Source of the DNA: Bacillota bacterium
Lineage (GTDB): Bacteria; Sysuimicrobiota; Sysuimicrobiia; Sysuimicrobiales; Segetimicrobiaceae
Assembly: GCA_021324295.1 (NCBI GenBank)
Contig: JAJPJJ010000039.1
Location: 1 to 37,478 of the forward strand
DNA: 37,478 nt
Direction of reading: 5' to 3'
The translations under genes were made by a program, and so were the position numbers. The notes under the pieces were generated by a model. It ran no database searches, was not told the DNA's origin, and saw only the letters and a program-made list of their open reading frames with translations. Below are positions 2,539 to 28,119 of the stretch, piece by piece. The stretch's first letter is position 1. The number at the start of each line of letters is the position of its first letter.

Positions 2539-4692
2539 ATGCCGGTCGAGATCAGCGTCGGCCCTCCCGTCCTGACGATCAACCAGAGCACCACCTTCAT
2601 GGTCACCGACCTCGGCGGCGAGATCGCGGCCGACAGCGAGCAGGGCGTCTTCGCCGGCGACACGCGCTTCGTCAGTTACTACGCGATCTTCGCGAACGGC
2701 CGGCCGTGGGTCCGCCTCACCTCGAGCCCGATCACCTACTACGCGGCCCGGATCGTGCTCACGAACCGCGCCTTTCGAACCGAGGAGGGAGAGGTTCCCG
2801 AGGGCACGCTCGGACTTGAGATCTGCCGGACGGTCGGCGAGGGGATCCACGAGGACCTCGACGTGACCAACTACGGCGTGGCGCCGGTGCGGTTCAACCT
2901 GGAGATCGCGCTGCGCTCGGACTTCGCCGACCTGTTCGAGGTGAAGTCGCACGAGTTCGTGCGGCGCGGGCGGATCGAGACGGTGTGGGACGCGGAGCGG
3001 AGCGAGGTGCGCACGTCCTACACCCACCGCGACTTCCACTGCGAGTTCACCTACCGGCTCGTCAACACCGACTCCGCGGCGCACTACGCCAACGGCCGCG
3101 TGACGTTCGAGATCGCGCTGGCGCCCGGCGCGAGGTGGCACGCGTGCGCCCACTACATCCTGGCCGGCGCCGGGCAGGTCCGGGCCCCGCTGTACGGGTG
3201 CGCCCACCTCGACGAAGAGACGGATTTCGACCGGCTGCAGGCCGGGTGGCAGGCACAGGCCACGCAGCTCACCTCCGCCAACGAGGAGGTGTACCGGCTC
3301 TACCAGCAGTCGGTGGAGGACATCGGGGCGCTGCGGCTGTACGAGCACGACCTGGCCCCGGACGTCTGGGTGCCGGCGGCGGGGGTGCCGTGGTATGTGA
3401 CGCTGTTCGGCCGCGACAGCCTGATCGCCGGGTTGCAGACGCTGCTGCTGCACCCGGGGCTGGCGCGCGGGGCGTTGCGCAAGCTCGCCCAGTACCAGGC
3501 GCGGGAGGAGGACGACTGGCGGGACGCCCAGCCCGGCAAGATCCTGCACGAGATCCGGTTCGGCGAGCTGGCGCACTTCCACAAGATCCCGCACACCCCG
3601 TACTACGGGACGGCGGACGCGACGCCGCTGTACCTGATCCTGCTGCACGAGACGTGGAAGTGGACGGGGGACGAGGCGCTGCTGCGGGAGTACCGGGACA
3701 CCGCGCTGGGGTGCCTGGCGTGGATCGACCGGTACGGGGACCTGGACGGGGACGGGTTCCAGGAGTACCGGACCCGCTCGCCGCAGGGCTACGAGAACCA
3801 GGGATGGAAGGACGCGGGGGACGCGGTGGTGGACGCGGACGGCCGCCCGGTGGGGCAGCCCAAGGGCACCTGCGAGCTGCAGGGGTACGTGTTCGACGCA
3901 TGGCAGCGGATGGCGGAGGTGTTTGCGGCCCTGGGGGAGGGGGGGCGCGCGGAGGAGTTGCGGCGGAAGGCGGCGGCGCTGCGGGCGAGGTTCGAGGCGC
4001 GCTTCTGGTGCGAGGAGATCGACTGCTACGCGTTCGCGCTGGGGCCGGACAAGCAGCCGGTCCGCAGCGTCGCCTCGAACGCGGGGCACTGTCTGTGGAG
4101 CGGCATCGCGTCCGCGGCGCACGCCGCGCGCGTCGTGCGGCGGCTGCAGGAGCCGGACATGTGGAGCGGGTGGGGGATCCGGACGCTGTCGGCGCGCAAC
4201 CCCGCCTACAACCCGCTCTCCTACCAGCGCGGGTCGGTGTGGCCCCACGACAACGGGCTCATCGCGCTGGGGTTCAAGCGCTACGGGTTCGCCGAGGAGG
4301 CCGCGCGCATCGCCCGGGACATCAGCGAGGCGGCCAGCTACTTCGTGAGCCACCGGCTCCCGGAGCTGTACGCGGGCCTGCCGCGGCGCCCGGGGATGTT
4401 CCCCGTGCAGTACCTCGGCGCGAACGTGCCCCAGGCGTGGGCCGCGGGGTCGGTGTTTCACCTGCTGCAGGCGATCCTCGGGCTGCGGGCGGACGCGCCG
4501 CGGAGCTGCCTCTACGTCGACCCGTACTTGCCGCGCTGGCTCACGGATGTCACGCTCCGCAACCTCACGGTGGGCCGGGCCCGGCTCGATCTGCGGTTCT
4601 GGCGGGAGGGCGAGCGCACCCGCTGGGATGCCTCGGTGCGCGACGGCGCCCTCAAGATCGAGGAGGCGCCGTGGCACCCCTGGTCTACCTGA
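2539..4692 (+). CDS. Amylo-alpha-1,6-glucosidase / glycogen-debranching enzyme family protein (copy 1)
   Basis: 717 aa. An N-terminal beta-rich GDE_N_bis-type domain (about residues 8-230; EQGVFAGDTRFVSYY) is followed by an (alpha/alpha)6-barrel glucosidase domain. Barrel motifs: FGRDSLIAG near 289, PGKILHEIRFGEL near 332, DGDGFQEYRTRSP near 404, GWKDAGDA near 422, SNAGHCLWSGI near 512 and VWPHDNG near 567. The family (COG3408) hydrolyses alpha-1,6 branch glucose in glycogen-like glucans; many bacterial members are uncharacterised and may act on other alpha-glucosides. No signal peptide, so cytoplasmic. The gene starts 7 bp after the DUF2945 gene. A paralog with the same architecture lies at 24242-26398. 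Substrate is inferred. The antisense strand is also open over most of the gene, a GC-bias shadow. Confidence 0.92.
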   Translation: MPVEISVGPPVLTINQSTTFMVTDLGGEIAADSEQGVFAGDTRFVSYYAIFANGRPWVRLTSSPITYYAARIVLTNRAFRTEEGEVPEGTLGLEICRTVGEGIHEDLDVTNYGVAPVRFNLEIALRSDFADLFEVKSHEFVRRGRIETVWDAERSEVRTSYTHRDFHCEFTYRLVNTDSAAHYANGRVTFEIALAPGARWHACAHYILAGAGQVRAPLYGCAHLDEETDFDRLQAGWQAQATQLTSANEEVYRLYQQSVEDIGALRLYEHDLAPDVWVPAAGVPWYVTLFGRDSLIAGLQTLLLHPGLARGALRKLAQYQAREEDDWRDAQPGKILHEIRFGELAHFHKIPHTPYYGTADATPLYLILLHETWKWTGDEALLREYRDTALGCLAWIDRYGDLDGDGFQEYRTRSPQGYENQGWKDAGDAVVDADGRPVGQPKGTCELQGYVFDAWQRMAEVFAALGEGGRAEELRRKAAALRARFEARFWCEEIDCYAFALGPDKQPVRSVASNAGHCLWSGIASAAHAARVVRRLQEPDMWSGWGIRTLSARNPAYNPLSYQRGSVWPHDNGLIALGFKRYGFAEEAARIARDISEAASYFVSHRLPELYAGLPRRPGMFPVQYLGANVPQAWAAGSVFHLLQAILGLRADAPRSCLYVDPYLPRWLTDVTLRNLTVGRARLDLRFWREGERTRWDASVRDGALKIEEAPWHPWST

Positions 4693-7185: not shown

Positions 7186-7193
7186 ATCTCGTG

Positions 7194-7290
7194 TATCGCG
7201 ACGCGGCCAAGCGGCTTTGGCGCTCAGGCGAGCGGGGTCGGTCCGCTGGGGGCCCGGGCCCTTCCGTGAGGGGTATCGCGACGCGGACAG
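7194..7290 (-). repeat. Dispersed repeat A, locus 1 (80-bp period, 1.2 copies)
   Basis: TATCGCGACGCGG occurs at 7194 and again at 7274, an 80-bp period. Between them, TCGGTCCGCTGGGGGCCCGG matches all but one base of the minus-strand reading of the 78-bp tandem unit at 12617-12772. The flanking CGCGACG blocks match too. The minus strand can fold as a TCGC...GCGA outer stem around GCCAA...TTGGC. It lies between the diiron gene and the CoA-binding gene and encodes nothing recognisable. Confidence 0.65.
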
Positions 7291-7319: not shown

Positions 7320-7790
7320 ATGACCCAGACGACCGACGAACGGGCGCTCATCCGCGAGCTCCTGCGGGCCTGCCGGACGATCGCGGTCGTGGGCGTCTCC
7401 TCGCATCCGTTCAAGGACAGCCACATCGTGGCCCACCACCTCCACCGCGAGGGCTATGAGGTGGTGCCGGTCAATCCCAATGCGTCGGCCGTCCTCGGCC
7501 GGACCGCGTACCCCTCGCTGAGCGCCCTGCCCGAGGACGTGGCGGCGCGGGTGGACCTCGTGGTGGTCTTCCGCCCGAGCCGGGAGGTCCCCGAGATCGT
7601 GGAGCAAGCGCTGGCCCGGCTGCCCAACGTCAAGGGGATCTGGACACAAAAGGGAATCGTCCACGATGGGGCGGCCGCCCGGGTCCGCGGCGCAGGTCTT
7701 GCGGTGGTCCAGGACCGCTGCATCCGCACGCAGCACCTGGGCTACAAGTTCAGCGCGCAGGCCGGGGGCTCCGCAGAGGCACGAGCATGA
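7320..7790 (+). CDS. CoA-binding domain protein (YccU-like)
   Basis: 156 aa, a single Rossmann-type CoA_binding domain. Visible elements: TIAVVGVSSHPFKDSHIV (glycine-poor phosphate loop, residues 20-37), EVVPVNPNA near 52, the VDLVVVFRPSREVPEIV strand-helix and IWTQKGI near 105. Stand-alone proteins of this family bind CoA or acyl-CoA, but their reaction is not known. Its TGA overlaps the thiolase ATG by four bases (ATGA), so the two are translationally coupled. This makes a role in handling acyl-CoA for the thiolase plausible. Start at ATG 7320; the upstream gap holds repeat A. Confidence 0.9.
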   Translation: MTQTTDERALIRELLRACRTIAVVGVSSHPFKDSHIVAHHLHREGYEVVPVNPNASAVLGRTAYPSLSALPEDVAARVDLVVVFRPSREVPEIVEQALARLPNVKGIWTQKGIVHDGAAARVRGAGLAVVQDRCIRTQHLGYKFSAQAGGSAEARA

Positions 7791-9010
7791 GCGAGACGCA
7801 GCAGGCGGTGATCCTCAGCGCCGTCCGCACGCCGGTAGGGCGTTTCCAGGGAGCGCTATCGTCTGTTCCCGCCGCGGAGCTGGGGGCGGCGGCTGTCCGC
7901 GCGGCGGTCGCGCGGGCGGGGTTGCCCGACCCCGCGGACATCGACGAGGTCATCATGGGCAACGTCGTCTCCGCCGGGCTCGGGCAGAACATCGCGCGGC
8001 AGTGCGCCATGCGAGGCGGCCTCCCGAGCAGCGTCGGCGCCATGGCCGTGAACAAGGTCTGCGGCGCGAGCCTCAAGGCCGTTGTGCTGGCGGCCCAGGC
8101 CATTCGCGCGGGTGACGGCGCGTTGTACGTGGTGGGCGGCGTCGAGAGCATGAGCCGTGCGCCACACCTCATCGACGGACGCGGAGGACAGCTTCGCCTG
8201 GGCCACGTGGAGGTCAGGGACGCGCTCGTCGTCGATGGCCTGTGGTGCGCGTTCGCGGACTGGGCCATGGGCAGCGCCGCGGAGCACATCGCCGACCGCT
8301 ACGGGGTGACCCGGGAGGCGATGGACGAGTTTGCCCTCGGCAGCCACCGGAAGGCGGTAGCGGCGGTGGACGGTGGGCGATTTGCGTGCGAGATCGTGCC
8401 GGTGGTGGTTCACCAGCGCGGAGGCGAGACAGCCGTGGTGGACCGCGACGAAGGGCCGCGGCGCGACACGTCTCTGGAGGCGCTGGCGAAGCTGCCGCCG
8501 GTGTTCAAGCCGGGCGGTCGGGTGACGGCCGGCAACTCCCCCGGACTCAACGATGCTGCCGCGGCGCTCGTGATCGCGAGCGCATCCAAGGCCCGGGAGA
8601 TCGGCGCGCGGCCCCTGGCCCGCATCGTCGGGTACGCGCAGGCTGCGGTCGAGCCCAAGGACATCTTCGATGCGCCGGCCCGGGCGATTCCCCGTCTGCT
8701 CCAGACGGTCGGTTGGTCGCTGGACGACGTCGACCTGATCGAGCTGAACGAGGCCTTTGCCGCGCAGATCCTGGCGAACGGCTACGCGCTGGCGGACCTG
8801 GGGTGGAACTGGGAGCGGGTGAACGTCAACGGCGGCGCGATCGCGCTCGGGCATCCGCTGGGAGCCACGGGCGCACGGATCCTCACGACACTCGTGCATG
8901 CGCTCCGCCGTGGTGGGAGACGGCGGGGGATCGCCGCGCTCTGCCTGGGGGGCGGCGAGGCTGTCGCGATCGCTGTGGAGGCGGAGGACGGTGGGCCCGG
9001 CGGTGGCTAG
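7787..9010 (+). CDS. Acetyl-CoA C-acetyltransferase (thiolase)
   Basis: 407 aa, full-length thiolase. It catalyses Claisen condensation of two acyl-CoA molecules or the reverse thiolytic cleavage. All catalytic elements are present: nucleophile Cys92 in NKVCGAS, NEAFAAQ at 321-327, His356 in [12 protein letters not shown] and Cys386 in [18 protein letters not shown] (117-127) is also typical. The closest functional class is biosynthetic or degradative acetoacetyl-CoA thiolase; chain-length preference cannot be read. Coupled by a 4-bp overlap to the CoA-binding gene upstream and overlapping the FAD oxidoreductase downstream by 20 bp, so the three form one operon. Confidence 0.95.
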
Positions 9011-10166
9011 CCGCGTGCCGCTGCTCGTCGTCGGTGCGGGGCCGTACGGGCTGGCCCTATCGGCCTATGCGCGGTCCCAGGGCATCGAGCACGTCGTCGT
9101 CGGTCGTCCGATGGACTTTTGGAAGTCGCACATGCCCGGGGGGATGTACCTGCGGTCCGGGTGCGACTGGCACCTCGATCCTGCGGGCGATGACACGATC
9201 GAGCGCTACCTGGGGGCCAGGAACCTCCGGCCCACGGACGTCGAGCCGCTGTCGCGGGATGCCTACCTCGACTACTGCGCGTGGTTCCAGGATCGGAAGG
9301 CGATCCCGGTGCTTCCGAAGCTGGTGCGCGCGCTCCACTACCACCGCCGCGCGGGGCCGTGCTTCGAGGCCGTGCTGGAGGATGGGGATACGATCGCGGC
9401 CCGGTCGGTGGTGCTCGCCCTCGGCTTTCGGTACTTCGCGCACGTGCCCGACACCTACGCGGCTCTCGTGCCATCCGGGCGGCTCGTTCACACCTGCGAT
9501 CTCGTGGACTTCTCACCGCTCCGGGGGAAGCGGGTGCTCATCATCGGGGGCCGGCAGAGCGCGTTCGAATGGGCCGCCCTCATCCGTGAGCACGGCGCCG
9601 CCGCCGTGTACCTGTCGTATCGTCACCCGACGCCGGCCTTCCAACCGTCCGATTGGTCCTGGGTGGATCCGCTCGTCGCGGCGATGGCATCGGATCCGGG
9701 CTGGTTCCGGCGTCTCACAGCCGAGGAGAAGGAGCAGGTGAACCGCCGCCTGTGGGCGGAGGGGCGGCTCAAGCTGGAGCCCTGGCTTGCCCCGCGGCTC
9801 GCGCACGGGACGGTCCGGCTGTTCCCCGAGTCCCGTGTGATCGGATGCCGCGAGCGGCCCGGCGGGGAACTCGATGTGACGCTGGACGACGGCACGGTCC
9901 TCCTCACGGATCAGGTCGTCCTGGCCACGGGATACAAGGTCGACGTCAGACGGATCCCGCCCCTGGCCCAGGGCAACCTGCTCGGGATGCTGAGCACCGA
10001 GAACGGCTTCCCGACACTCGACGAGCAGTTCCAGAGCACCGTGCCGGGGCTGTTCTTCACCAGCATGTGTGCGACGCGGCACTTCGGACCGTTCTTCGCC
10101 TTCACGGTCGCGGTCCGGACCTCCGCGACCGTGATCGGCTCCGCGGTGAAGGCGATGCTGGCGTAG
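8991..10166 (+). CDS. FAD/NAD(P)-dependent monooxygenase-like oxidoreductase
   Basis: About 391 aa, a flavoprotein with two Rossmann folds. The FAD-binding motif [13 protein letters not shown] is near residue 15, followed by [15 protein letters not shown] (flavin-containing monooxygenase / lysine-N6-hydroxylase-like). The NAD(P) site is [13 protein letters not shown] near 183 and the late FAD contact is ATGYKVD near 317. Likely substrates are small amines, ketones or other soft nucleophiles, but none can be assigned. The GTG at 8991 is chosen because GGAGG lies about 10 bases upstream; it overlaps the thiolase by 20 bp. A second GTG at 9003 is possible. Last gene of the CoA-binding/thiolase operon. 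Confidence 0.85.
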
Positions 10167-10662
10167 CACCGGAGCGCGCCGGCCGAAGGCTCCGCCAAGC
10201 GCCCCTGCGACATCCCGCCGGAAGAAACGTTCGTTCGATTGCTCAAATCCTTCGCCCGACCGAGGGTGGCGCTGCCCGTGCATGGAAGGCGGAGAGTGCC
10301 ACCAACTTTTCATCATTACACAATCGTTGCAGTGAATGACGTAGGTCGTGCCGGGGGGGAGCATGGGCCGCCGGCCGAAAGGTCGAGGGGCCTCGTTGCG
10401 TGGGGGCGCCGACGCGGGGAACCGCCGCAGGGCGCCCTGCTTGCTCCGCCATGTCGTGCCTTCGAAACGCGGCGCGCTGCGGCGCCGCTCACGGCACTCC
10501 TCGTCGTCCGCCCGGGCAGGCCTCGGTAGGGAGATCGCGGCGGGACGCCGCGCTTCCGACCGATCCCGGGCGCCACCCCGCCCGCCGGGCCGTCACCCCG
10601 CACTCCACCGGCGCAGCGGTGCGCCGTGGCTCCAAGCTCCGAGTAGGTGAGGAGGTGCGGAA
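10167..10662. other. 496-bp intergenic region before the secreted dehydrogenase
   Basis: It begins with a weak terminator-like hairpin (10170-10194). A locally AT-rich patch at about 10308-10340 contains TACACAAT and could hold a promoter, but no good -35 accompanies it. The rest is very GC-rich without a convincing protein frame. The last 20 bases contain the strong ribosome-binding site of the next gene (GAGGAGG). Confidence 0.4.
10170..10194 (+). terminator. Weak hairpin after the FAD oxidoreductase
   Basis: CGGAGC (10170-10175) pairs with GCTCCG (10189-10194) three bases after the TAG. The 13-nt interior also contains a self-complementary GCCGGC. There is no U-tract. Its position suggests an operon 3' end. 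Confidence 0.35.
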
Positions 10663-12420
10663 ATGGTGTATAGACGGCCGCGCACGGCCGTGCTGCTGGG
10701 AATGCTTCTGTTGCTGACGCTGCCAACCCTCGGCTCCGCGCAACAGACCAAAGTGGTGCTCGCCAACCCCCTCTGCCCTCAGGAAACGGTGCTCTTCAAC
10801 CCCGGTAATGGCGAGGACATCGTGCTCCCGTCGGGCTACAAGGTATCGGTCTTCGCCAAGGGCCTGAATTTCCCGACCGGGATCGCGTTCCTGGGCAACA
10901 GGCAGCGCTTCGCGGTCTTCGTGCTGGAATCGGGGCATGGCCTGCCGAGCCGGTGCAACGACGAGACCGCGGTATCGGGCGGCACGTTCGCCTCCACCAA
11001 CCCATTCACACCGGATATCCTGGTGTTCGACCAGGGCGGACATCTGATCGCGGGTCCTCTTGCGAAGCCGACGGCCACCGGGGGCGGCTTCCAGCCACAT
11101 GGTCCCGCCATCGACATCGCGTTTGAGCACGGGACGGCGGGCGGGCGGCTCTTCGCGACGGACTCAAATCAGGCGACCCACGGAGGCGGGCAGAACAACA
11201 GCTCGCGTATCGTGACCGTAAACCTCGTCAGCGGCCAAGTCACCCCGTTCATCACGAACCTGCCGACCGGCGATCACCCGTCGGAGCAGCTCGCGTTTAA
11301 GGGCGAGTTCATCTACTGGTCACAGGGATCCACGACAAACTCCGGGGTGGTCGGCCGCGACAACAACGGCGGGCTCAACCAGCAGGACATCCCGTGTCAG
11401 GACATCACGCTCAGCAACAACGTCTTCGACTCGGGCCTCGGCGTGAAGACGAGCGGGTACTCCCCCTTCGGCGTGCAACGCCCCGGAGCAACCGTCAGGG
11501 CATTCGAAAGCGCGAAGCACCGTGGCGTATGCGACGGCGCCATCTTGCGCGCGCGGCTGCACGTGGCGCATCCGGAGACCACGATCCAGCCGTTCTCGTG
11601 GGGGTACCGGAACGGGTATGCCATCCGGTTCGCGCCCGATGATCACGCGCTGAGGGGAGGGCTGCTCGTGGGCGAGGACGGCGCCGATGAGCGCGGCGCA
11701 CGGCCGTCCAATAACGCCCCGGACGCCCTGGACCTGGCTCGCCAGAACCCCGACGGCACCCCGGACTACCACGGGTGGCCGGACCGGTTCGGGTTCCTGC
11801 CGTCGAGCCAGGCGATGTTCAACCCGATCGGCGGACCCGGCGACGACCTCTGCGGGCCGCCGGTCGTGCCGTCCTTCGATCCGGTCGCCTGCCGTGCGGC
11901 GCTTGCGGCGGCCGGCGACATCCCGATCCGGGACGTCCTGAAGGTCCCCCCTCAGCAGATCACGTCGCCTCTGGCCATCGAGGCGCCGGACTCCTCGTTC
12001 ACGGGGATCGACTTCGTGCCTGATGCGTTCGTCAGCGGGCCCGTCCAGCGCGGGGCTGCGCTTTACTCCCTCGAGGGAGACTTCGGGTTCTCAGCGGCGA
12101 ACGCCACCGCACCCGCTCCCGAGGTCGGGCACGAGGTCAAGCTGATCAACTTCAGCCCGCCGAACGCGCCGCTCGCCCTGAAGATCATGCGGTTCGCCCA
12201 CAACACCACGTTCGAGCAGGCGTTCCCCGACGGGCTTCGCGGCTTCAACCGTCCTACGAACGTCAGGTTCGGCCCCGATGGCTGCGCCTATGTCGTCGAC
12301 TATGGTGCCGTGCGCGACTTCGGCCAGTCGGACCCGGAGAGCAAGTTCATCGTCCCCGGGGACGGTCCGCTCGTCCAAATCCCGGGAACGGGTGTGATCT
12401 GGAAGATCTGCCGGCGGTAA
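10663..12420 (+). CDS. Secreted sorbosone/PQQ glucose dehydrogenase-like beta-propeller protein
   Basis: 585 aa with a clear Sec signal peptide: positive MVYRRPRT, hydrophobic core to residue 22, cleavage likely after GSA before QQT. The mature part resembles the six-bladed propeller of soluble PQQ-dependent sugar (sorbosone/glucose) dehydrogenases: LPSGYKVSVFAKGLNFPTG near 45, EQLAFKGEFIYWSQGS near 208, DYHGWPDRFGFL near 367, FTGIDFVPDAF near 446 and FGPDGCAYVVDYG near 537. Several Cys residues fit an exported disulfide-bonded protein. PQQ or calcium ligands cannot be assigned with certainty, so catalytic activity is unproven. Start fixed by GAGGAGG about 8 bases before the ATG. A strong hairpin follows the stop; the PilX-like gene begins 150 bp later. 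Confidence 0.82.
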   Translation: MVYRRPRTAVLLGMLLLLTLPTLGSAQQTKVVLANPLCPQETVLFNPGNGEDIVLPSGYKVSVFAKGLNFPTGIAFLGNRQRFAVFVLESGHGLPSRCNDETAVSGGTFASTNPFTPDILVFDQGGHLIAGPLAKPTATGGGFQPHGPAIDIAFEHGTAGGRLFATDSNQATHGGGQNNSSRIVTVNLVSGQVTPFITNLPTGDHPSEQLAFKGEFIYWSQGSTTNSGVVGRDNNGGLNQQDIPCQDITLSNNVFDSGLGVKTSGYSPFGVQRPGATVRAFESAKHRGVCDGAILRARLHVAHPETTIQPFSWGYRNGYAIRFAPDDHALRGGLLVGEDGADERGARPSNNAPDALDLARQNPDGTPDYHGWPDRFGFLPSSQAMFNPIGGPGDDLCGPPVVPSFDPVACRAALAAAGDIPIRDVLKVPPQQITSPLAIEAPDSSFTGIDFVPDAFVSGPVQRGAALYSLEGDFGFSAANATAPAPEVGHEVKLINFSPPNAPLALKIMRFAHNTTFEQAFPDGLRGFNRPTNVRFGPDGCAYVVDYGAVRDFGQSDPESKFIVPGDGPLVQIPGTGVIWKICRR

Positions 12421-12432
12421 CAGGCGCGGCGT

Positions 12433-12464
12433 CGGCAGGAGGCGGCTCGAGCCGCCTCCTGCCG
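12433..12464 (+). terminator. Strong palindromic hairpin after the secreted dehydrogenase
   Basis: A perfect 32-bp palindrome centred on CTCGAG: the left arm begins CGGCAGGAGGCGGCT and the right arm is its exact complement. It lies 13 bp after the TAA. There is no clear U-run (GTTCTG follows). It would form an extremely stable hairpin and probably ends or protects the upstream transcript. Confidence 0.7.
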
Positions 12465-12570
12465 TTCTGCCGCATGGCCGTGCGCACGAGGGGCGCGGCC
12501 CCGGACGTCGCGCTGAGGGACCCGCCGGGAGCCGATGCACCAGCCCGAAGGTCGGTGAAGTGAGGACCCC

Positions 12571-14706
12571 GTGAACGGAGGCTGCCCGCGCGCGCAGCGC
12601 GGGATCTTGTGGCTAAAGGCCCGGGCCCCCATCGGACCGAGGCAGCTCGCGTCAGTTCCACGACCGTGGGCCGTCGTCGCGAGCCCCGTGGTACAGGCCC
12701 GGGCCCCCATCGGACCGAGGCAGCTCGCGTCAGTTCCACGACCGTGGGCCGTCGTCGCGAGCCCCGTGGTACAGGCCCGGGCCCCCATCGGCCGGAACGC
12801 GCGTTTCGCCTCCACCGCCGTCGTCCGGCGTCTCGATGCGTGTGATCCAAAGCGGGCCCGCAACGACCGTGGGATGGCCCTGATCACGGCGCTGTTCATC
12901 ATGTTCGCGGTCGCGATGATGCTGTTCGCGTTCTCGTCCTTGATACAGAACGAGGCCAGGTTCGCGACCGCGAGCCGGGACAGCAGCGAGGCGCTCGGCC
13001 TCGCCGAGGCGGGGATCCAGGAGTCGCTTGCGCGTCTCTCGAGCTTCGGCGCGGTCCCGGGCGGGACGGTCTTCAAGAATAGCCTCACGGCCGGCGCGTC
13101 GCAGAACTGCGCGTCTAGCTCCACCGGCACGCCGGTCAACTGCGTCATCTACGAGTCCCCCCTGCGAGGATTCTCTACCGGGCAGGCGATCGTCTTTCCG
13201 ATTCTCTCGACGGCCTCGTACGGACCGGGCCGGACACAGGCGACCCGGTGGGTCCGCATCTTCGAGCAGGCGGCGCTGCGCCAGGGATTCCTCCCGTGGA
13301 TCATCTACGGTCCCCGCGTGACGTTCCAGGGCGACGCGGCACCGGTCCAGGGCGACACATACTCGCGGTCGGCCGTCGGCTTCGCCTCGTGGAGCAAATC
13401 CCCGCAGTGTGCAGGCGGGGACGCCGCGGCAGTCCTCCTCAGCCCGCAGGTCATGGCCGGGACATACATCGATCTTCAGGGCGGCGGCGGTAGCCAGAAC
13501 ACCGACTGCCCGACCGGGCTCCAGGTCAGCGACGGGGTCAACTACACGGCGGAGTGCACCGGCTCCCCGCAGACGGAGGTAGCGCCGACCCCCTGCCCGG
13601 ATGGGTTGCGCGCGGTGCCGTACAACTGGCACCCGCTCACGCCGATCGGGATGGCGTCCGCGGACTTCACCGCATTGATCACGTGGATTGCGGACAACCA
13701 CGATCGCCTGAGGACGCAGTGCGATGGTCTCGGCATGGGACTCTGCTACTATCAGGCGACCCAGAACGGTACCGGCGTCACCTATGCGCCCGCCGGCACG
13801 TACACCCCCTCGTACTGGTCCACCATCGGCTCGACGAGCGGGAAGGTGATGGTGACGAGCGCCACGCAGCCGTTCTGCGTCAACCCGACGCCACCGATCA
13901 CCTCGGCGAGCGTCGTGCTGCCATCGCCGCCGATCACCGGCGGCTGCCCGAGCGGGTACCACTATTACGGGGCGGCCGACAACGGCAAGGCGTCGGCGAC
14001 TCGGTACCTCGATTGGGGACTGGTGGCGGACGACCTCACCCGCGCGCCGGCCAGGACGTTCTTCCAGCCACCCTCGTGCACCGCCCCGTGCGCCGGTACC
14101 GGCAACCAGAACGGGATCCGCTACATCCCGCTCCTGCCGGCGATCCCGGTCCTTCGGAGTATGCAGGCATGCCAGCAGTTCTTCGCCCCGGGCGTCACGG
14201 CGTATATCGTGCAGACCGGGGACGGGGTCAACTGCTCCCCGCCGATCCGGCAGACGGGTCTCTCGAACAGCGTCTCGTTCACGGGGACGAAGGGCAACCC
14301 CGAGGCGCTGCTGATCGACGACCAGGGCTACGCGAACCCCGGAGGGGTGACGGTCAACGGATCGCTCGGCAGGGGCGGCCAGACGTGCAGCAGCATGGCG
14401 ACCTCCAACGCCTGGGACAACTACAACTGGGGATTCATCTTCGCGACGGGGGACATCACGCTGCCGGCGAACACGATCTTCACCGGTTTCATCTATACGC
14501 CGGGGAGCGTCTTCACACGCGGGACGGTGCTGGTCCAGGGCGGGATCTTCTCGGCCAACGTGGAGGGCCAGAGCGGACAGGTCAGCGCGATCGACTCGGT
14601 CGGGAACGTGCACTTCTGCGCGGGCGAGGGCTCGATGCCTCTCGGCTCACAGTTCTTCAGCTTCAAGACGCTCTCCTGGCAGGATCGCCCGCTCGACCGG
14701 CCCTAG
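12571..14706 (+). CDS. PilX-like type IV pilus-associated protein with very long N-terminal leader
   Basis: 711 aa from GTG 12571. The recognisable start of the mature protein is at residue 101: RNDRG then MALITALFIMFAV, a prepilin-like basic leader, cleavage glycine and hydrophobic helix typical of PilX N-terminal domains, followed by SEALGLAEAGIQESLARL. The remaining 590 residues are Cys- and Gly-rich, extracellular in character, ending with a beta-helix-like part (FIFATGDITLPANTIFTGF). PilX proteins act in pilus assembly or adhesion. No ATG/GTG/TTG lies in frame close to the cleavage site: the nearest is GTG 12766, and GTG 12571 has GAGG upstream. The segment between encodes a 26-residue tandem repeat (12617-12772), so the true start is uncertain. 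No other pilus genes adjoin. Confidence 0.7.
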   Translation: MNGGCPRAQRGILWLKARAPIGPRQLASVPRPWAVVASPVVQARAPIGPRQLASVPRPWAVVASPVVQARAPIGRNARFASTAVVRRLDACDPKRARNDRGMALITALFIMFAVAMMLFAFSSLIQNEARFATASRDSSEALGLAEAGIQESLARLSSFGAVPGGTVFKNSLTAGASQNCASSSTGTPVNCVIYESPLRGFSTGQAIVFPILSTASYGPGRTQATRWVRIFEQAALRQGFLPWIIYGPRVTFQGDAAPVQGDTYSRSAVGFASWSKSPQCAGGDAAAVLLSPQVMAGTYIDLQGGGGSQNTDCPTGLQVSDGVNYTAECTGSPQTEVAPTPCPDGLRAVPYNWHPLTPIGMASADFTALITWIADNHDRLRTQCDGLGMGLCYYQATQNGTGVTYAPAGTYTPSYWSTIGSTSGKVMVTSATQPFCVNPTPPITSASVVLPSPPITGGCPSGYHYYGAADNGKASATRYLDWGLVADDLTRAPARTFFQPPSCTAPCAGTGNQNGIRYIPLLPAIPVLRSMQACQQFFAPGVTAYIVQTGDGVNCSPPIRQTGLSNSVSFTGTKGNPEALLIDDQGYANPGGVTVNGSLGRGGQTCSSMATSNAWDNYNWGFIFATGDITLPANTIFTGFIYTPGSVFTRGTVLVQGGIFSANVEGQSGQVSAIDSVGNVHFCAGEGSMPLGSQFFSFKTLSWQDRPLDRP
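12617..12791 (-). repeat. Dispersed repeat A, locus 2: 78-bp tandem repeat, 2.2 copies
   Basis: Two identical 78-bp units (12617-12694 and 12695-12772) and a third copy of the first 19 bases (12773-12791). Each unit contains AGGCCCGGGCCCCCATCGG, then CTCGCG and CGCGAG arms that can pair around CCACG-AC-CGTGG. The unit matches intergenic DNA at 7194-7290 (inverted) and 27968-28050 (same orientation). Because 78 is divisible by 3, the repeat keeps the frame of the overlapping PilX-like gene open. Identity between adjacent units implies recent duplication. Confidence 0.9.
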
Positions 14707-24241: not shown

Positions 24242-26398
24242 ATGCTCGCCGAGATCAAAGTTGGGCCAAACGTCATCACCGTCAACCGTGGCAGGACGTT
24301 CGTCGTCAGCGATCTCGACGCCAGTATCCGGGGACAGGCCGAGCAGGGGCTGATCTCTCGCGACATCCGGTTCCTGTCGCACTACCGCTACCGGATCAAC
24401 GGGCGGAAGTGGAAGCTGATCACCTCCGCCCCCCTGTCCCACGTCGCTGCCCGGTTCGAGTTCACCAACCCCGCGCTGCTGAGCGCCGCCGGACCGGTGC
24501 CCCGGCACGTCGTCGGCTTCACCGTGCAGCGTGCGATCGCGGACGGCGTGCACGAGGACCTGGAGCTGGTCAACTACCACTACGCGCCGGTGCGGCTCAC
24601 GCTCGAGATCGAGCTCGGGTCGGACTTCGCGGACCTCTTCGAAGTGCGGAACCGCCACATTCGCGTCCACCGCGAGATCCACTCGCACTGGGACGAGGCC
24701 GCACAGCGCTACACCGCCGAGTATGCGCGCGAGGGCTACCGCGCCCGCTTCGTGTATGAGGTCACGCGCAGCACGACGCGGGCGCGGCGACACGGGCACG
24801 CGCTCCTGTTCGACCTGACGCTCCCGCCGGGCGGCCGCTGGCAGGCCTGCGTGAACCTGATCCCGGAGATCGACGGCGTCCCGTTCGGCCCCGTGTCGCG
24901 CTGCGGCTCGGAGCCCCTCATGCGGTGGGAAGCGCACATGGACGAGTGGCGGGGGGCGATGGCGCGCCTCCGTACGAGCGACGACCGGCTGACGCAGACG
25001 CTTCGGGTGTCGGGTGACGATCTCGTCGCCCTCCTGCTGGATGAGCAGCCGCCGGGGCGGCCCGCCGTGCTCGCGGCCGGCGTGCCGTGGTTCGTGGCGC
25101 TGTTCGGCCGGGACAACATCATCGCGGGCCTCCAGGCGCTGCCCCTCCACCGGTCGTTCGCGCTGGGCGCGCTCGGCGAGCTCGCGCGGCACCAGGCGAC
25201 CACGTCGGACGACTATCGCGACGCCGACCCGGGCAAGATCCCCCACGAACTCCGGACCGGCGAGCTGGCGCGATTCGGGTTGATCCCCCACACGCCGTAC
25301 TACGGCACCGCCGACGCGACGCTCCTGTACCCGATCCTCCTGCACGAAGCCTACCTGTGGACCGGAGACCCGGAGCTGCTGGCGGACTACCTCCCCGCGG
25401 CCGAGCGGTGCCTGCACTGGATCGACGCCTACGGCGACCGGGACGGGGATGGGTTCCAGGAGTACCGCACGCGATCGCCGCGCGGGATCAAGCACCAAGG
25501 GTGGAAGGACTCCGGCGACGGCGTCGTGTACGGCAACGGTCAGTTCGTCGAGCCTCCGGTGGCGCTGTGCGAGCTGCAGGGGTACGCCTACGACGCCAAG
25601 ACCCGGATGGCCGTCCTCTACGAGGAGATGGGGCACGCGGCGCGGGCCACGCGCCTGCGCGAGGAAGCGGAGACCCTGTACACGCGGTTCAACGAGACGT
25701 TCTGGCTGGAGGACGAGGGCACGTACGCGTTCGGGCTCGATGCGCACAAGGAACCGATCACGAGCACCGTCAGCAACGCCGGCCACTGTCTGTGGTCGGG
25801 GATCGTCCCACCGGCCCGCGCCCGGCGCGTGATCGCGCGCCTGACCGCGGACGACATGTGGAGCGGGTGGGGGATCCGGACGCTCAGCGCGGCCCACCCC
25901 GCGTTCAACCCGTTCGCGTACCAGCGCGGCGCGGTGTGGCCGCACGACAACGCGATCATCGCCACCGGCTGCCGGCGCTACGGGGATGCCGAGACAGCCG
26001 CGCGCATCGCGCGCGGCGTCTTCGACGCCGCCGAGCGGTTCCAGCAGAACCGGCTGCCCGAGTTGATGTCGGGCCTCGAGCGGAGCGTCCCGGGCTTCCC
26101 GGCGCAGTACCTGGGAGCGTGCGTCCCGCAGGCCTGGGCCGCGAGCAGCGCGTTCGCGCTGCTCCACGTGTTGCTGGGCCTGCGCGCCGACGCGCCCCGC
26201 GGCTACCTCTACGTGTCGCCGGCGCTGCCCGCCTGGCTCGACTGGGTCGAGGTCGAGAACCTGCAGGTCGGCCCGGCGCGCGTGGCGCTGCGGTGCTGGC
26301 GCGAGGACGGGCGCTCCCGCGTCGAGGTGCTGGATCTCTGCGGTCCCTGTCGCGTCGTGCCCCTCGAGGAGTGGACCGCGCTGCCGGCGCGGTCCTGA
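24242..26398 (+). CDS. Amylo-alpha-1,6-glucosidase / glycogen-debranching enzyme family protein (copy 2)
   Basis: 718 aa, the paralog of the gene at 2539-4692, with the same domain order and nearly the same length. Matching motifs: EQGLISRDIRFLSHY (N domain), FGRDNIIAGLQ near 289, PGKIPHELRTGEL near 332, DGDGFQEYRTRSP near 401, GWKDSGDG near 419, SNAGHCLWSGI near 510 and VWPHDNAII near 565. By eye the barrel is roughly 60% identical and the N-terminal domain lower. The role is presumably hydrolysis of alpha-1,6 glucosyl branches or a related alpha-glucoside in the cytoplasm. GGAGGG five bases before ATG 24242 fixes the start. A weak -10-like TAAATA at 24214-24219 suggests its own promoter. 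It precedes rpoZ by 115 bp. Confidence 0.92.
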   Translation: MLAEIKVGPNVITVNRGRTFVVSDLDASIRGQAEQGLISRDIRFLSHYRYRINGRKWKLITSAPLSHVAARFEFTNPALLSAAGPVPRHVVGFTVQRAIADGVHEDLELVNYHYAPVRLTLEIELGSDFADLFEVRNRHIRVHREIHSHWDEAAQRYTAEYAREGYRARFVYEVTRSTTRARRHGHALLFDLTLPPGGRWQACVNLIPEIDGVPFGPVSRCGSEPLMRWEAHMDEWRGAMARLRTSDDRLTQTLRVSGDDLVALLLDEQPPGRPAVLAAGVPWFVALFGRDNIIAGLQALPLHRSFALGALGELARHQATTSDDYRDADPGKIPHELRTGELARFGLIPHTPYYGTADATLLYPILLHEAYLWTGDPELLADYLPAAERCLHWIDAYGDRDGDGFQEYRTRSPRGIKHQGWKDSGDGVVYGNGQFVEPPVALCELQGYAYDAKTRMAVLYEEMGHAARATRLREEAETLYTRFNETFWLEDEGTYAFGLDAHKEPITSTVSNAGHCLWSGIVPPARARRVIARLTADDMWSGWGIRTLSAAHPAFNPFAYQRGAVWPHDNAIIATGCRRYGDAETAARIARGVFDAAERFQQNRLPELMSGLERSVPGFPAQYLGACVPQAWAASSAFALLHVLLGLRADAPRGYLYVSPALPAWLDWVEVENLQVGPARVALRCWREDGRSRVEVLDLCGPCRVVPLEEWTALPARS

Positions 26399-27832: not shown

Positions 27833-27906
27833 GCGGGAGTAGCTCAATGGTAGAGTGCCAGCCTTCCAAGCTGGCGATGCGGGTTCGATTCCCGTCTCCC
27901 GCTCCA
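27833..27906 (+). tRNA. tRNA-Gly (anticodon TCC)
   Basis: 74 nt with encoded CCA. Acceptor arms GCGGGAG (27833-27839) and CTCCCGC (27896-27902) pair fully; discriminator T. The anticodon stem CCAGC/GCTGG encloses the loop CTTCCAA with anticodon TCC at 27865-27867. GGTTCGATTCC forms the T arm. It reads GGA and GGG glycine codons. Confidence 0.96.
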
Positions 27907-27954
27907 TCCACTTGTGCGGCTCGGCCCGGGTCCCGCTAGGAGCCTGTCCCGGAA

Positions 27955-27971
27955 GCCTTCCCAGGGGAGGC
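27955..27971 (+). terminator. Hairpin after tRNA-Gly
   Basis: GCCTTCC (27955-27961) pairs with GGGAGGC (27965-27971), including one G-T wobble, 50 bp after the tRNA. It is followed by GC-rich DNA rather than a T-tract. It shares sequence with the hairpin at 27689-27713. Confidence 0.45.
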
Positions 27972-28050
27972 CCGGGGCTCCAACCGAAAGCCCTACGCTC
28001 CCATCGGGCCGAGGCGGGACGCCAGGGTTCCAAAGCCGTGGCGTCCGGCG
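27968..28050 (+). repeat. Dispersed repeat A, locus 3
   Basis: After AGGCCCGGGG and a 22-bp insertion, the sequence from CCCATCGGGCCGAGGC (starting at about 28000) onward aligns with the 78-bp unit of 12617-12772 through GTTCCA and CCGTGG, roughly 75% by eye over 50 bp. It contains a perfect 8-bp stem, GGACGCCA (28017-28024) with TGGCGTCC (28039-28046), around a 14-nt loop. It lies between tRNA-Gly and folD. Confidence 0.6.
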
Positions 28051-28119
28051 TGGCGGCATTCGCGTTACCTCAGCGACGTCGTGGGGTGGTTACGGCCCCG
28101 CAGGCCCAGGAGGCCTCAG

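Follow-up and report, generated by a model that had tools for sequence, protein, structure and literature searches.

How does a gene for a PilX-like pilus protein come to begin with a leader of about 100 residues made largely of a tandem repeat? In the 37,478-nt stretch of DNA analysed here (the window), a frame on the + strand is open from GTG 12571 to a stop at 14704 (through 14706), 711 codons in all, and its first part runs through an array that Tandem Repeats Finder places at 12609-12791 (period 78, 2.3 copies, 98% match) with a score of 350, against 54 for the next-best tandem array in the window. The initial annotation had described an in-frame 78-nt repeat in this leader, and the array call and the frame, open throughout, bear it out. 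It had also described two identical units. Two 78-nt units are indeed present, but they are equal at 77 of 78 positions (12614-12691 versus 12692-12769, the sole difference being TAAAGG versus TACAGG), and a third, diverged unit follows at 12770-12843. This unit scores 45 bits with a sequence model of the repeat family described below, and the array thereby reaches almost to the junction between leader and body.

The starts available to this frame are few. None lies within 34 codons of the cleavage glycine (12871), in agreement with the earlier observation that the RG/MALITALF cleavage region has no start close to it. GTG 12571 and GTG 12766, the two starts named at that time, both exist, but TTG 12607 and GTG 12688 are also in frame ahead of the glycine. 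The protein scores 8.7 bits against Pfam PF14341 (PilX-type), far below the cut-off of 25.5, so that "PilX-like" describes the cleavage site and the place in the operon and does not assign the protein to the family. It has in common with PilX-type minor pilins the RG/xALI cleavage region, the hydrophobic stretch and, for a second copy of the gene, a place among pil genes; it differs from them in that the window copy is off-operon and has a predicted 100-residue leader.

This second copy, on another contig of the same genome (C43), encodes a protein 75% identical to that of the window copy and lies in an operon with genes for a prepilin peptidase, two N-methylation-motif prepilins, PilM, PilN, PilO and a secretin; the gene directly upstream of it is an N_methyl prepilin. 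The operon paralog begins CCCGTGAACGGA, with its start 16 codons ahead of the cleavage glycine, and in three sister-genus orthologs the starts lie 9-20 codons ahead of it. The prepilin cleavage site is kept in 5 homologs and is followed by a hydrophobic helix. The window copy aligns to the operon locus (L083) in two blastn segments, 12499-12595 versus 8642-8744 (E=8e-8, 73%) and 12853-14706 versus 8750-10552 (79.5%). Homology breaks around the array, where the window has 257 nt instead of 5, a net gain of 252 nt or 84 codons. The first segment also covers the tail of the upstream prepilin gene, which makes the window copy a stray duplicate of one part of the operon. The start regions read GGAGGGCCC-GTG-AACGGA in the paralog and CCC-GTG-AACGGA at 12571. 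Since the window copy has the same CCCGTGAACGGA at GTG 12571, followed by the in-frame insert and then DRG/MALITALF, we take GTG 12571 to be inherited. The default prediction is then a leader of 100 residues, with QLASVPRPWAVVASPVVQ as an example peptide; the similar length proposed earlier is thus backed by the paralog. On the + strand, the locus reads as follows.

12499-12570, + strand: what is left of the upstream prepilin gene's 3' end, with the start context, by blastn to L083; duplicated along with the PilX-like gene
12562-12566, + strand: Shine-Dalgarno-like GAGGA before GTG 12571, from the sequence
12571-12595, + strand: start GTG and first leader codons (CCCGTGAACGGA), common to the operon paralog
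12596-12852, + strand: in-frame inserted repeat element, the gap between the two blastn segments against the operon paralog; its outer limits are approximate to a few nt, the borders being blurred by GC-rich sequence
12614-12691, + strand: repeat unit 1, 78 nt, in the reverse of the orientation found before genes elsewhere
12692-12769, + strand: repeat unit 2, 77/78 identical to unit 1
12770-12843, + strand: repeat unit 3, the diverged one; read in gene-sense orientation it is terminal, like its counterparts in other arrays
12853-14703, + strand: PilX-like body, the rest of the leader (ending RNDRG) and then the MALITALF mature part, by blastn

The inserted sequence belongs to a family spread over the genome. 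A family sequence model built from 62 units finds 143 units in the 4.02-Mb host genome, a draft of 129 contigs in which several arrays lie at contig ends, so that copy numbers may be wrong. Contigs C42, C71, C78, C80, C102 and C122 of this assembly (G000) end inside repeat arrays, and because contigs break within arrays the family is one cause of the fragmentation of the draft. The window array, used as a query, matches 57 places in the genome. The loci that we fetched hold 66 arrays or single copies (29 single, 18 double, 8 triple, 8 four-unit and 3 five-unit); head-to-tail arrays of 1-5 units thus occur at dozens of places. Unit spacing is most often 78 nt (39/70) and mainly 75-83 nt; because it is often no multiple of three, the family is not one designed to preserve a reading frame. 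The core GGCCCGGGCCCCCANCG is near-invariant and stands between unrelated flanks.

Outside this genome, units of the repeat are absent from the 11 other genomes of the same taxonomic family and from the 42 other genomes of the order and phylum that were searched, and the repeat has no match in the viral contigs or plasmids searched. One weak match in the phylum genomes lies inside ligA, and an exact 20-mer scan of GTDB representatives returned a single match, in Budvicia; we take both as chance. The repeat family is apparently private to one lineage. Two more copies lie in the window itself.

7190-7263, - strand: second family copy, a single intergenic unit before the gene at 7320, which encodes a CoA-ligase-like N-terminal domain
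27936-28092, + strand: third family copy, a degenerate unit (27997-28057) with the outer modules of a long form

The first of these, like many other sites in the genome, agrees with the earlier remark that the repeat is elsewhere intergenic. In arrays of at least three units, the first unit in gene-sense orientation averages 66% identity to the rest, whereas the rest share 84% among themselves. This pattern fits local amplification beside an older terminal unit, and the window array has the same layout of near-identical units plus a diverged terminal one. The idea of a recent expansion therefore holds as far as local amplification goes, but the expansion did not arise inside this leader: the leader received a copy of a 143-unit family that normally lies before other genes.

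In so fragmented a draft, with several arrays at contig ends, an insert of this kind might be a short-read chimera or a mis-sized repeat. We find such an artefact highly improbable here, as the sequences on either side of the array align, in order and in frame, to a single contiguous stretch of the paralog, even if the copy number may still be wrong.

Where the family sits was assessed on 59 arrays away from contig ends, using composition-based gene calls made for this analysis, on which the placement null also rests. These calls make 89% of the DNA coding, yet in 50 of the 59 arrays any overlap with a called gene is 25 nt or less. When the strand opposite to the window's + strand is read, arrays often stop just short of a Shine-Dalgarno sequence and a start codon. 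A same-sense start lies 10-40 nt past the array in 24/59 cases, against 9.4% for random intergenic points, and in 19/33 of the multi-unit arrays; mirror-image placement occurs in 4 cases, the PilX-like gene included. Arrays between two sense-strand genes number 28/59 and those between two antisense-strand genes 9/59. The genes behind arrays include argJ, purS, hisIE, a glgC-like gene, sufD, phosphoglycerate mutase, solute-binding proteins and others, and a regulon was ruled out since the downstream proteins are unrelated. The gap between argC and argJ (L085; L022 5897-6213) is filled by four units directly before the Shine-Dalgarno sequence of argJ; it is short and repeat-free in the 8 relatives with a readable argJ start region.

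The two strands of the unit differ in what they allow a reading frame to do. In several arrays the frame of the upstream gene extends 32-44 nt into the first unit, and the unit carries a largely conserved TGA on its gene-sense strand, from which we infer that upstream genes use this TGA as their stop codon. At L019, L027, L028 and L031, the frames of the upstream genes enter the first unit by 32-37 nt and then stop. Through multi-unit arrays, 69% of frames are open on the pilX strand versus 35% on the other. The pilin case suggests an orientation rule, in which one strand mostly reads through and the other has a largely conserved TGA able to end frames.

Placement of this kind invites the proposal that the arrays are 5' control elements, in which unit number, changed by slippage, would set the expression of many unrelated genes, the pilin insert being a by-product of their spread. 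We regard this as rather doubtful; if it were true, the genome would hold a repeat-number dial placed right before ribosome-binding sites. It is very unlikely that the long repeat-encoded leader is itself functional, with copy number selected as a switch of pilin length. Both 78-nt steps do keep the frame, and units 1 and 2 are nearly identical. Yet units whose spacing is often not a multiple of three precede dozens of unrelated genes, and the gene copy concerned is not part of the pilus operon. With one chance in three of keeping the frame, and about 69% of frames open, an open insertion is also unremarkable. Because that share of the frames on this strand is open, a single open in-frame insertion is not improbable.

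The prevalence of untranslated arrays ahead of genes also bears on the start codon. Translation of the PilX-like gene could begin within or after the array (at GTG 12688, GTG 12766, ATG 12874 or a non-standard codon), leaving the array as 5' untranslated DNA like most of its family. The gene caller indeed favours ATG 12874, owing to the non-coding composition of the insert. We hold a start of this kind to be unlikely: GTG 12766 has no Shine-Dalgarno sequence (GCCGTCGTCGCGAGCCCC), whereas GTG 12571 has GAGGA ahead of it and is itself shared with the paralog, and a start at ATG 12874 would drop the basic leader residues and the glycine.

Tight placement in one orientation ahead of Shine-Dalgarno sequences, together with conserved blocks of bases, is also what a structured RNA or a tandem riboswitch in 5' untranslated regions might display. 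The repeat has no match in Rfam, and a covariation test found no nested covariation in the alignment of units. A consensus fold was unsupported on either strand, whether by average pairing probabilities or by RNAalifold on subsets and alternative alignments, and the fold z-scores of the unit average 0.0 and -0.1 on the two strands, as for shuffled sequence. With neither match, covariation, common fold nor excess stability, the family is not filed as structured RNA, and a riboswitch, for which the downstream genes would moreover be unrelated, is extremely improbable. A c-di-GMP aptamer, which one stretch resembles by eye only, was dropped. So were cassette recombination sites (attC), as there are no cassettes and the units are directly tandem.

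A search of the genome for Y1 transposases found no dedicated mobiliser, which counts against the insertion reading given next. The single Y1 transposase sits in an ordinary IS605-type tnpA-tnpB pair with different flanks, and no repeat unit occurs within the 1.6 kb read around it. A RAYT/REP system, which would have a single-copy REP-type Y1 transposase flanked by the repeats, was set aside on this result.

We consider it likely that a copy of the dispersed family inserted in frame in the leader of the duplicated PilX-like gene, where it would since have been read from GTG 12571 as a tolerated accident. The insertion and the change in copy number are drawn from comparison with the paralog and between arrays. 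A small, lineage-specific repeat would spread to new sites, its mobility being deduced from its dispersal, and would afterwards amplify locally, head to tail, presumably by slippage or recombination. Its usual site is the gap before a gene, in one orientation and right ahead of the Shine-Dalgarno sequence. At 12596-12852 a three-unit copy lies in the opposite orientation, within the leader codons of an off-operon duplicate. The frame survived because the unit has few stop codons on that strand and the net gain is divisible by three. With the inherited GTG 12571 kept and the insert presumably translated, the leader would grow from 16 to 100 residues. Most likely, this is a tolerated accident and not an adaptation.

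What the insert is tolerated in can be asked separately. The stray gene may be silent or decaying, with the insert sitting in a dead gene, which is compatible with the origin of the insert that we favour. Its off-operon location points that way, as do a scan for sigma-70-type promoters, which found no promoter-like site just upstream, and pairwise distances to outgroups that exceed those of the operon copy. On the other hand, the 711-codon frame is intact and dN/dS on the window-copy branch is ~0.3-0.4 (worked out by hand from pairwise distances), which makes a dead gene possible but somewhat unlikely. The body is constrained, with a dN/dS of 0.42 against the operon paralog. The branch values point to a gene that was functional through most of its history.

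A tolerated insertion of a dispersed repeat turns a gene-specific story into a genome-wide one, that of a 143-unit family often placed before unrelated genes and also within operons. The pilin case illustrates one predicted way for a repeat to give a protein a long additional N-terminal stretch. The placement of the family without an RNA fold signal raises the testable question of by what means repeats of this kind spread and whether expression is tuned by them.

The repeat forms a new family within a known class of bacterial repeats, and its best analogues are MIRU and BOX. Mycobacterial interspersed repetitive units (MIRU) have a 77-bp unit, form few-copy head-to-tail arrays between genes, also in operons, and can include a differing 53-bp unit (PMC2453075, PMC4213456); a promoter role has been reported for the senX3-regX3 MIRU (PMC4213456). 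The family described here resembles them in its ~78-nt unit, its dispersed tandem arrays of few copies (1-5), its diverged terminal unit and its position between co-directional genes, in operons (argC-argJ). It differs in that the organism is unrelated and many arrays abut a Shine-Dalgarno sequence. The likeness drawn here is one of unit length and arrangement, and the repeat is not filed as MIRU. BOX elements of Streptococcus pneumoniae are modular (boxA-boxB(n)-boxC) and able to modify genes; their transcripts are predicted to fold, and the elements are over-represented between convergent genes (PMC3049150). The long-form copies described here look similarly modular (outer module, 1-2 units, outer module), but the unit gives no sign of folding (z-scores near 0 for either strand) and lies ahead of gene starts. 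Rickettsia palindromic elements are small repeats often inserted in frame in protein genes, where they encode a conserved peptide (PMC10969869). They share with the pilin insert a small repeat in frame within a protein gene, but among the 59 arrays we found a single leader insertion and not frequent coding insertion.

Conserved outer modules mark a long form of the element, seen in about 8 copies of 1-2 units each, in which the internal units are bounded by one outer module on one side and a different one on the other; most multi-unit arrays are without them. The copy at 27936-28092 is one such long form, with CTAGGAGCCTGTCCCGG...GGCCCGGGGC on one side and GCATTCGCGTTACCTCAGCGACGTCGTGGGGTGG on the other. 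Used as a marker of an autonomous element, the outer-module end gave 37 matches, versus 69 for the reversed control. The outer 3' module (for example in L033 near 5965, L066 near 3599 and L011 near 6278) reads roughly GAATTCGCATCACCCCAGCGAATTCGTGGGGTG and contains two interleaved inverted repeats, GAATTCGC/GCGAATTC and CACCCCA/TGGGGTG, in a pseudoknot-like layout; a longer variant bears an additional hairpin.

Other features of the window deserve mention. The long-form copy at 27936-28092 lies directly after a tRNA gene (27833-27903). Just past the stop of the gene at 10663-12420 is a perfect GC-rich inverted repeat (12424-12475, GGCAGGAGGCGGCTC/GAGCCGCCTCCTGCC) without a T run, which may end transcription ahead of the stray pilin gene. 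Finally, direct repeats of 113 and 300 nt (74-75% identity, ~21.7 kb apart) at 2831-3669 and 24534-25366 mark a pair of paralogous genes, 2539-4692 and 24242-26398.
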